A stretch of 20,203 nt of DNA from a virus. Made by a program: the position numbers and the translations under genes. The number at the start of each line of letters is the position of its first letter. The first letter of the stretch is position 1. This document shows positions 10,081-20,203 of the stretch, piece after piece. The DNA lies in the IMG/VR virus record IMGVR_UViG_3300012924_000267, positions 1 through 20,203 of that record; one strand, 5' to 3'. The notes beneath the pieces were generated by a model, which searched no databases, was not told the origin of the DNA, and saw only the letters and a program-made list of their open reading frames with translations.

Positions 10081-10377
10081 ATGCTGACCTTCTGCGAGCC
10101 CGACGTACTGGTCGTTGACGTCGAGGACGAACCCCTCCCACGACGCCGATCGATCACGCAGGACCTGACCTTGTACGTGCACAGCGATTCTGGTGCGTGG
10201 CACCGCAAGGCCATCGGCGGGCTCACCACCGCATGCGGCGAACCGATCGTGCGTGGCGCTGCGCTGATGCACGAGCGCTACGTGGGCTACCTGTGCCCGA
10301 GGTGCTTCACCCCGTACGAGCTCGCGCTCGCCGCGGCGGCTGACAAGAAACGAAAGGACGAGGCCGATGACTTCTAA
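10081..10377 (+). CDS. Small zinc-ribbon-like protein
   Basis: 98 aa, ATG two bases after the previous TGA. Metal-ligand residues are C52 (TTACGEP), H64, C72 and C75 (LCPRCF), with H41 (HRKA) as a further candidate, so a single zinc site is likely. The acidic N-terminus and the Lys/Asp-rich C-terminus are probably disordered. Small proteins of this H...TxCG...CPxCF layout are frequent in phages of high-GC hosts but have no assigned role. It interrupts a lysis-type cassette without looking like a lysis protein. Its 3' end overlaps the holin-like gene by 11 bases. Confidence 0.6.
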   Translation: MLTFCEPDVLVVDVEDEPLPRRRSITQDLTLYVHSDSGAWHRKAIGGLTTACGEPIVRGAALMHERYVGYLCPRCFTPYELALAAAADKKRKDEADDF

Positions 10378-10636
10378 AATCTGGGCTGCGATGCGGGAGC
10401 TTGCGAGCTCCAAGAAATTCCAGGCCGCGGTGCTGTCCGCCATGTTGTGGGCGCTCGGCAAGCTCGGGCTCAAGCTCGATGCGACCGACCTGCTGCCGAT
10501 CGTGGGCCCGCTCTGGCTCTACATCTTCGGCCAGGGCCTTGCCGACTTCGGCAAGAGCGCAGCGCAGGTCACGACCGCGAGCTACCCGTCGCTCGTCTCA
10601 ACGCCACCCGCCACCGCCCCACAGGTCGCGCCGTGA
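10367..10636 (+). CDS. Holin-like membrane protein
   Basis: 89 aa, ATG 10367 inside the end of the zinc gene, with AAAGGACGAGG upstream as ribosome site. A positively charged N-terminus (ASSKKFQ) precedes a hydrophobic helix (residues 19-34), a short polar turn (LKLDATD), and a second hydrophobic helix (residues 43-58, LPIVGPLWLYIFGQG) followed by ADFGKSAA and a Pro/Thr-rich tail. The block P-I-V-x-x-x-x-x-Y-I-x-G-Q-G-x-A-D-x-G-K is one I associate with small two-helix phage membrane proteins often annotated as holins. Position before an exported lipoprotein and an endolysin fits. It would open the inner membrane at the end of infection. Confidence 0.6.
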   Translation: MTSKIWAAMRELASSKKFQAAVLSAMLWALGKLGLKLDATDLLPIVGPLWLYIFGQGLADFGKSAAQVTTASYPSLVSTPPATAPQVAP

Positions 10637-10986
10637 AGATCGCGATCTGGGTCCTGACCCTGGCGCTCGCAGCCTGCGGCGCATCCGCGCGCGACCGGGC
10701 GATCGCCACCGCGCTCACCACGACCAACGCCGCGGCGCTGACCTTCGAGAAATGGGACGCGCTGCACCAGGGCGTGCTCGTCGCCAAGGCGCCCGACTAC
10801 GCCACGGGCAAGGCCGAGCTCGCGCAGTACCGACTCGAGCAGACCAAGGTGGCCCAGCTCCTCGCCGGCGCGTACCGAGCCATCGCGACCGCGGCGACGC
10901 TCGAAGATGACCACAGCCTGCTCGGGGTCGCGCAGGCCGCGCTCCTGCTCCAGGACGAGCTCCAAGCCCTGAAGGTGATGCCATGA
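10633..10986 (+). CDS. Small lipoprotein, o-spanin candidate
   Basis: 117 aa; GTG 10633 overlaps the holin-like stop in a GTGA junction. The N-terminus is a clean lipoprotein signal: basic residue, hydrophobic core IAIWVLTLALA, lipobox L-A-A-C with Cys15. The mature part is about 100 residues of Ala/Leu-rich amphipathic helix. In lysis cassettes of Gram-negative phages an outer-membrane lipoprotein is commonly the o-spanin, partner of a membrane-anchored i-spanin (possibly the 120-aa protein at 9716). It is longer and more helical than typical Rz1 and is not Pro-rich, so an unrelated envelope lipoprotein is possible. Confidence 0.6.
   Translation: MKIAIWVLTLALAACGASARDRAIATALTTTNAAALTFEKWDALHQGVLVAKAPDYATGKAELAQYRLEQTKVAQLLAGAYRAIATAATLEDDHSLLGVAQAALLLQDELQALKVMP

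Positions 10987-13856: not shown

Positions 13857-13860
<4 letters not shown>
13156..13860 (-). CDS. dnaC-like: DnaC/IstB-like AAA+ helicase loader
   Basis: 234 aa, ATG in an ATGA overlap with the initiator gene. Walker A is GDKGCGKT (residues 110-117), Walker B is LVLDDL (159-164), sensor I is LLITTN (193-198), and RIADRIREC (211-219) carries the arginine-finger/initiator-specific box found in DnaC, DnaI and phage loaders. Residues 1-75 are acidic then charged helix, with no zinc finger, and probably contact DnaB or the organiser. The loader opens or delivers the replicative helicase at the phage origin using ATP. No helicase gene is in view, so the host's is presumably recruited. Confidence 0.85.
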
Positions 13861-14796
<936 letters not shown>

Positions 14797-14816
<20 letters not shown>

Positions 14817-15999: not shown

Positions 16000-16599
16000 A
16001 TGCGAGCCATCGTGATCGTGGTGTTGCTGGCCGGGTGCCCACATCGGCCGTTGGCTCCCGGGGAGACACGCTGCTACAGCGCGCCGATGTTCGGTGGCGT
16101 GCAGACGCACTGCGAGACGGGGCAGCCCCAGCAGCCGCAAGGGCCGCCGCCCGGCCCATCTCCGTATCGGCCGCCGCCCGTCTACCAGCCTGGCGCACCT
16201 GGTTCGGCGCAGACGGTTCCGACCGACTACGGAATGTTGCCGCGCCAGGATCGGCCAGTGGCTGGGCCGGAAGTCAGGATTACCGAGTCCCCGCCATGGT
16301 GCTTCGATCGCGTCGTCGACGGTGGTGACGGCAGCTGCGATGACTCGCTGGTCGCCTGCAACCATGCTCGAGTGCGCTACGCGACGAAGCTCTTCGCTGG
16401 AAACCTCGACGCCCTCAGCGAGTGCTCGCTGCGCACGGCTACGGCTTGCATCGACACATCGTCGGTGCTGACCGGTGGATACGTGCGCGTATGCGCGACG
16501 AGCCTGGATGCGTGCGATCGCTGGATCGAAGCGCTGCGCTCGAGCGCTGACGCCAAGATCCTCACCGAGCGCTGCTACATACTGCGCGCCAAGTCGTAG
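16000..16599 (+). CDS. Cys-rich surface lipoprotein (possible lysogenic-conversion gene)
   Basis: 199 aa. ATG 16000 with GGGG just before gives a textbook lipoprotein leader: MRAIVIVVLLAGC, lipobox L-A-G-C, Cys13. Starts further upstream would spoil it. A Pro/Gln/Gly-rich linker (residues 50-100) leads to a compact C-terminal domain; there are ten Cys besides the lipidated one (for example PPWCF, GSCDDS, VACNH, ERCYI), probably paired as disulfides. The style matches outer-membrane lipoproteins of Myxococcota. It lies alone on its strand between the early operon and the repressor, so it probably has its own promoter and could be made in lysogens, for instance for superinfection exclusion. That role is inference. 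Confidence 0.7.
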   Translation: MRAIVIVVLLAGCPHRPLAPGETRCYSAPMFGGVQTHCETGQPQQPQGPPPGPSPYRPPPVYQPGAPGSAQTVPTDYGMLPRQDRPVAGPEVRITESPPWCFDRVVDGGDGSCDDSLVACNHARVRYATKLFAGNLDALSECSLRTATACIDTSSVLTGGYVRVCATSLDACDRWIEALRSSADAKILTERCYILRAKS

Positions 16600-19567: not shown

Positions 19568-19755
19568 ACGTTTCGCGGCGCCGCTGATGATGAGCCACGG
19601 ACTTCACCAGGCCGTGGACTCGCTCCCCCGCAGTCACTGGCGCCGCACCTTCTCGATCGCAACCAACCAGGAGGTGCACCAAGGACGAACGAACCAGATC
19701 AGCTGTCCTCAGACAGCGGAAGAAACAGTCACCGGACGATCCGCCCGGTGATCTA
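19568..19755. other. Non-coding stretch with three hairpins
   Basis: No convincing gene lies here. A 54-codon ORF (ATG 19587 to TGA 19751) has no ribosome site. Three stem-loops are seen: 19592-19621 (CCACGG/CCGTGG extended by GAG/CTC with a bulged A), 19702-19717 (GCTGTC-CTCA-GACAGC), and 19729-19751 (TCACCGG/CCGGTGA, 9-base loop). They lead directly into the tRNA-like element, so the stretch may be one structured transcript. Confidence 0.45.
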
Positions 19756-19811
19756 CGAGGCGTAGCACGTGGCCGTGCAGCGTTGTCCCGGTTCGATTCC
19801 GGGCGCCCCGA
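19756..19811 (+). ncRNA. tRNA-like element without anticodon arm (or attachment-site remnant)
   Basis: A perfect T arm, CCCGG-TTCGATT-CCGGG, at 19787-19803 is followed by CGCCCCG (19804-19810) and A. Upstream, CGAGGCG (19756-19762) pairs with CGCCCCG at six of seven positions, then comes TA and a hairpin GCACG-TGGC-CGTGC (19765-19778) in the place of the D arm. No anticodon arm follows; only eight bases separate this arm from the T stem. C1-G72 with A73 is the pattern of proline tRNA. It cannot be a normal tRNA. Possible readings are a functional tRNA mimic, a decayed tRNA, or the tRNA 3'-end identity block of an attP site. Confidence 0.6.
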
Positions 19812-19853
19812 CGACCTGAAGTTCAGTTCCATTCCAACCATAAAGGGGTCGAG

Positions 19854-20156: not shown

Positions 20157-20158
20157 AC

Positions 20159-20203
20159 GTGAGCGCTCTGCACGGCGCAGGTTCTCGAGACCGCTACGGC
20201 TCC
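20159..20203 (+). CDS. Possible gene start, cut by window end
   Basis: GTG 20159, two bases after the previous stop, opens a frame that runs to the window end (15 codons, MSALHGAGSRDRYGS). The close spacing is like that of the other genes here, but there is no clear ribosome site, so this is only a possibility. Confidence 0.3.
   Translation, partial: MSALHGAGSRDRYGS

Follow-up and report, generated by a model that had tools for sequence, protein, structure and literature searches.

The window analysed here is the whole 20,203-nt stretch of the IMG/VR virus record IMGVR_UViG_3300012924_000267, and it is 100% identical to part of IMGVR_UViG_3300015242_000011, a 39,017-nt contig bounded by a direct terminal repeat of 77 nt. 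Given this repeat, the parent genome is probably circular, with a length of 38,940 nt. The locus described here contains a tRNA-like fold without an anticodon arm, preceded by a hairpin and flanked by two ORFs that are both co-directional with it (Table 1). A search for near relatives by way of the flanking protein, the integrase and the terminase returned only the identical parent contig, two weak bacterial integrases and terminase (TerL) relatives that are fragments and do not contain the element. BLAST of the element against phages and plasmids gave matches at chance level. No close bacterial relative was found for host assignment; going by the style of the proteins, a Myxococcota host would be our guess. 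The genome is rich in low-complexity repeats. For example, a low-complexity ORF with GYGSGDG-type units occupies positions 20157-20203 and continues into the end of L006, between the element and the HTH/integrase genes, and a simple repeat coding AVAVAVAV is found at window positions 13860-14816 on the minus strand, in an ORF adjoining a DnaC-like helicase loader gene.

Table 1. Features at and around the tRNA-like element, in window numbering (continued beyond the window for the last two rows).
Feature	Position	Strand	Basis or remark
Upstream ORF, 136 aa	19157-19567	+	no match in PHROG; 188 nt separate its end from the element
Hairpin TCACCGGACGATCCGCCCGGTGA	19729-19751	+	immediately 5' of the element; terminator-like if read on the - strand
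tRNA-like fold without anticodon arm, 56 nt	19756-19811	+	sequence
Acceptor stem, 5' strand CGAGGCG	19756-19762	+	sequence, CM alignment, tRNA-Pro homology (CGGGGCG)
Linker U8 A9	19763-19764	+	sequence, CM alignment
D-arm GCAC / loop GTGGCC / GTGC, GG kept in loop	19765-19778	+	sequence, CM alignment
Spacer AGCGTTGT, 8 nt, in place of anticodon arm and variable loop	19779-19786	+	
T-arm CCCGG TTCGATT CCGGG	19787-19803	+	sequence, CM alignment, tRNA-Pro comparison
Acceptor stem, 3' strand CGCCCCG, and discriminator A73	19804-19811	+	sequence
Downstream ORF, 100 aa	19854-20156	+	no family match; starts 42 nt past the element
Tyrosine integrase (PF00589)	20766-21872		L006:17300-18406 (-)
tRNA-Phe(GAA) 3' fragment GGACTGAAAATCCGCGTGTCGTTGGTTCAACTCCGACCCTGGGCACC	near 23115-23164	-	outside the window; L006 about 16004-16051 (+), G001 about 36004-36051

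The earlier note had described an anticodon-less tRNA-like element at this site, and its coordinates and pairing proved exact. In the acceptor stem, six of the seven positions pair (19756-19762 with 19804-19810), A3.C70 being the sole mismatch, and the D-stem (4/4) and the T-stem (5/5, with a canonical T-loop) are fully paired, which leaves 15 of 16 stem pairs intact. The D-loop lacks the usual A14 and A21, CCA is not encoded at the 3' end, where CGA comes after A73, and the proline anticodon arm is absent, with only the 8-nt spacer in its position. ARAGORN called no tRNA at the element, and Rfam missed it at gathering thresholds and also gave nothing above the cut-off at an E value of 10. A covariance model built from the elements of other phages and trained without the one studied here did find it, at 37.3 bits and with an E value of 2.9e-12 for 39 kb of sequence, aligning over its full length and with no inserted arm. 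A descriptor specifying an acceptor of at least 6/7, a 4-bp D-stem whose loop has GG, a 5-bp T-stem, a TTCRANN loop and a spacer of 6-12 matched the 38,940-nt genome at the element site only and had no match in 400 first-order-Markov genomes of the same dinucleotide make-up. The element is not a chance pattern. It would not be discoverable from thermodynamics alone: the isolated 56-mer folds into the tRNA-like shape with pair probabilities of 0.7-1.0, its folding energy is about that of shuffled sequences (z 0.18, for the 56-nt stretch 19757-19812, shifted one base 3'), and in longer leader contexts rival pairings break the acceptor stem and in some cases also the T-arm.

The earlier note had also remarked on a tRNA-Pro-like 3' end, and this likeness held up. 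The element was compared with 731 tRNAs called by ARAGORN in the sampled loci, after their anticodon arms had been cut out and duplicates removed, and each of the 14 that matched best is a tRNA-Pro. Similarly, the bacterial genes checked in which the T-loop is followed by NNNCGCCCCGA (T-arm/CGCCCCGA 3' end) were all tRNA-Pro genes. Bacterial tRNA-Pro is the best-matching isotype of all and shares with the element C1:G72, the acceptor 3' end CGCCCCG-A73, the TAGC start of the D-arm and a tRNA-type T-loop; the acceptor is identical at 13 of 14 positions and the eight nearest tRNAs are Pro. In contrast to bacterial tRNA-Pro, the element is ARAGORN-negative, has no anticodon arm and no CCA, has a broken 3:70 pair and a shorter D-loop. 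Such a single-isotype appearance is seen for this element only and not for the other anticodon-less elements described below. Four stem pairs differ between the element and the closest sampled tRNA-Pro genes. At D12:23, T49:65 and T51:63 both sides have changed with pairing kept (D12:23 is A-U in the element and mostly G-C in tRNA-Pro), whereas at 3:70 a change on one side has produced the broken A.C. We infer the direction of these changes from tRNA-Pro genes of other lineages, the true ancestor not being among those compared.

The earlier note took the element to be unusual, but elements of its kind form a set that recurs in phages: 109 IMG/VR contigs match a pattern in which an ordinary D-arm (one D-arm pattern) is followed by a T-arm that is too close to leave room for an anticodon arm. 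The window element has the architecture of the set, in which acceptor and U8A9 are followed by a D-arm and a T-arm that only a short spacer separates, with the anticodon arm absent, and the commonest spacer in the set is 8 nt, equal to its own. Acceptor stems with 7/7 pairs are present in 57 of 108 elements (48 distinct), where random pairing would give about 0.1%, and the acceptor sequences of the 48 distinct elements are diverse. A 48-row alignment, for which nearly all rows had been picked for an acceptor of at least 6/7, contains double changes in all seven acceptor pairs and in three T-stem pairs, with 97.9% of cells pairing. Its covariation score is 0.716, compared with 0.160 +/- 0.014 after shuffling and no more than 0.15 in the slid controls; the D-arm and inner T-arm were set by the search pattern and carry no evidential weight. 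Homologous loci differ in a compensatory manner, in the T-stem between L074 and L138 and at pair 1:72 (C1-G72 versus G1-C72) between L070 and L140, while the L106 and L152 elements are identical at 60 of 61 positions within dissimilar flanks. Most of the set elements tested were found by the Rfam tRNA model with 34-52 bits and the arm deleted. Discriminator and acceptor sequences vary widely across the set and CCA is encoded in only five of 59 members, a pattern that speaks against a single synthetase charging them. Alanine identity was considered as a common feature and rejected, with G3:U70 present in only 8 of 48 elements.

The D-stem variant of the window element (GCAC/GTGC) had 20 other matches in IMG/VR, none of which forms more than 5/7 acceptor pairs, and many matches to this variant resemble ordinary anticodon arms or unrelated sequence. 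Among the matches listed, elements with longer spacers often carry a mini-hairpin in place of the anticodon arm; in the second length scan, counts above spacer 16 are to be read as at least the number given. Examples from IMG/VR with spacers of 13-21 are L094, L081, L266 and L311, in which the mini-hairpin has a 2-5-nt loop. It is possible, although only suggestive, that the mini-hairpin elements represent another kind of tRNA that does not decode. A consensus query gave no match in complete E. coli genomes, and the covariance model detected mostly normal tRNAs in bacterial genomes.

Cultured phages carry such elements as well. A 58-nt copy is present in Polaribacter phage Danklef_1 (43546-43603), where it sits in a co-directional gene run, is annotated as 'tRNA-OTHER, Undet (NNN)' and scores 71.8 bits. 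It shares with the window element the architecture lacking an anticodon arm; the Danklef_1 copy is intact, with a 7/7 acceptor and a canonical D-arm, whereas the window element is divergent. Lactococcus phages bIL309, ul36 and D2544 contain a 61-nt copy without RNA annotation, located past the lysis genes and/or beside an integrase or repressor gene. Across the set, the genes flanking 60 sampled positions code for terminases, head proteins, HNH proteins and unknowns, and some elements lie near other tRNAs. Among the families listed for these 60 positions there was no integrase, nor did a weakly seeded home-made integrase profile find one near set elements. Because of these heterogeneous flanking genes and the lack of an integrase among the families listed, we rejected an att role for the set as a whole, although the Lactococcus copies are near the integrase end.

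For the window copy itself, two observations favour the option that it serves as the integrase target: the 3' end is tRNA-Pro-like and, in the circular genome, the integrase gene begins about 0.95 kb downstream of the element. However, situated 1.2 kb past the integrase is a tRNA-Phe 3' fragment of 47 nt that reaches from the anticodon region to the 3' end; over 47-48 nt, its identity to bacterial genes identified by ARAGORN as tRNA-Phe is 85-87%. The usual form of an attP is a tRNA 3' fragment. The tRNA-Phe fragment has this form, and so the anticodon-less element is not needed as an integration site. From this fragment, we suggest that it is probably the phage attP and that integration would take place at tRNA-Phe. 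The 5' acceptor strand and D-arm, both of which the element has, are moreover not required of an attP, and the exact 22-nt block of T-arm and acceptor was present in none of 398 Pseudomonadota genomes, a phylum that may not be that of the host. The textbook fragment thus largely displaces the attP option of the earlier note, and we consider it very improbable that the element is an attP for a host tRNA-Pro gene. Integrating elements are known to leave tRNA 3' fragments behind (PMC9897764), and these, too, are pieces of tRNA that a mobile element carries close to an integrase; the window element differs from them in that it has kept a 5' half as well as a 3' half and lacks the middle. By eye, the integrase seems to have a serine in place of the first catalytic arginine, the expected region being AGGSASEVESLDW.

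We propose that the element derives from a tRNA-Pro gene and is a tRNA-like RNA that has no anticodon arm and does not decode, would be cut from a leader and may act as mRNA punctuation or as a tRNA mimic. This is the most likely of the readings weighed, and we give it even weight for and against. The element retains the top half of a tRNA, that is the acceptor stem, the D/T elbow and the discriminator, and groups with the recurring set in tailed phages, whose members are mostly 56-62 nt long. It would be transcribed within the leader of the downstream ORF and could be cut by RNase P at its 5' end, between 19755 and 19756. RNase Z or exonucleases might then produce the 3' end after 19811, and the released RNA could act on the flanking phage mRNA as a processing or stability signal, or persist as a stable tRNA mimic. 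Decoding by the element is impossible. Prolyl-tRNA synthetase reads the anticodon, and good charging of the element is therefore unlikely. In favour of a tRNA-like RNA are the full-length match to a model built without it, the set-typical spacer, the covariation of the set, the three double-changed pairs in the window copy and the copies in isolated phages. Against it, the element reaches only 37 bits compared with 45-72 for the clear set members scored, a score no higher than that of ordinary tRNAs with an arm insertion; A3.C70 is broken, and A14, A21 and CCA are missing; the persisting Pro isotype resembles a recent decay product; the fold is disfavoured in long transcripts; and, beyond the identical parent contig, no close relative was found that would show purifying selection.

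A serious alternative, and the main rival for the window copy, is therefore a phage tRNA-Pro gene in decay, in which a deletion of about 15 nt took the anticodon arm and left a non-functional remnant. The clear Pro isotype, with the matching acceptor and nearest tRNAs that set this copy apart from the other anticodon-less elements, would be expected of such a remnant, as would the one broken pair, the reduced D-loop and the missing CCA. Yet three of the four differing stem pairs are compensatory relative to the sampled tRNA-Pro genes, among which the true ancestor is not included, and the spacer has the commonest length in a covarying set from many phages, which is not expected from random deletions. 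We regard decay as possible, while leaning against it. The stems preserved by paired mutations across unrelated phages suggest, for the set, a non-translational job over simple decay. An abundant tRNA mimic could also be a decoy or sponge engaging enzymes or defence nucleases that grip the acceptor and T-arm and not the anticodon. The set retains acceptor, T-arm and elbow while acceptor sequence and discriminator vary, which fits shape over charging identity. As an example of such a nuclease, Cas12a3 cleaves CCA tails and grips the acceptor and T-arm of tRNA (PMC12851939); a decoy role against Cas12a3-like nucleases is speculative, and with so few set members encoding CCA we think a decoy unlikely. 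RNAs of the P1 C4 / P4 CI type are RNase P substrates, and the position of the element in a leader beside hairpins of a temperate phage would suit a similar small RNA that RNase P frees from its leader for an antisense or immunity role. Rfam gave no C4 match even at an E value of 10, and the element is a real tRNA fold and not an antisense hairpin, making this the least probable of the explanations that we weighed.

The usual explanation for phage tRNAs is that they serve decoding, either through codon supply or through resistance to anticodon nucleases. Recurring phage tRNA-like genes that are unable to decode, with acceptor and T stems changing in matched pairs, separate 'being a tRNA' from 'translating' and make other phage uses of the tRNA fold directly testable. 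Extending our proposal to the set, small tRNAs that do not decode may form a class of their own in many tailed-phage lineages, maintained by selection for a translation-independent role, with the window element as a divergent, tRNA-Pro-derived example; we hold this to be just short of an even chance. In this class, the anticodon arm would have been removed (spacer mode 8-9 nt) or shrunk to a mini-hairpin, and candidate roles are mRNA punctuation by RNase P and keeping enzymes that handle tRNA, or nucleases of defence systems, occupied. Anticodon-less genes are invisible or 'Undet' in annotation and may have been overlooked in many sequenced phages, including laboratory Lactococcus phages. Anticodon-loop mutants of tRNA are on record (PMC10264068), and in the open-access full-text literature we found no description of phage tRNAs from which the anticodon arm is missing.

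Another known parallel in layout is the tRNA-like domain of tmRNA (SsrA), which like the element has an acceptor, a reduced D-arm and a T-arm without an anticodon. A tmRNA was nevertheless rejected as a candidate, with the Rfam tmRNA models scoring sub-threshold (8.6-13.8 bits) and neither an mRNA-like domain nor a reading frame for a tag being recognised. Two further phage loci combine anticodon-less elements with other structured RNAs. In L092:1356-2052 a match to a full-length tRNA and a tmRNA of the alpha/permuted type accompany an anticodon-less element within 700 nt, and in L131, a single phage contig, an anticodon-less element (1102-1160) and a GOLLD RNA (10294-10682) are found about 9 kb apart.
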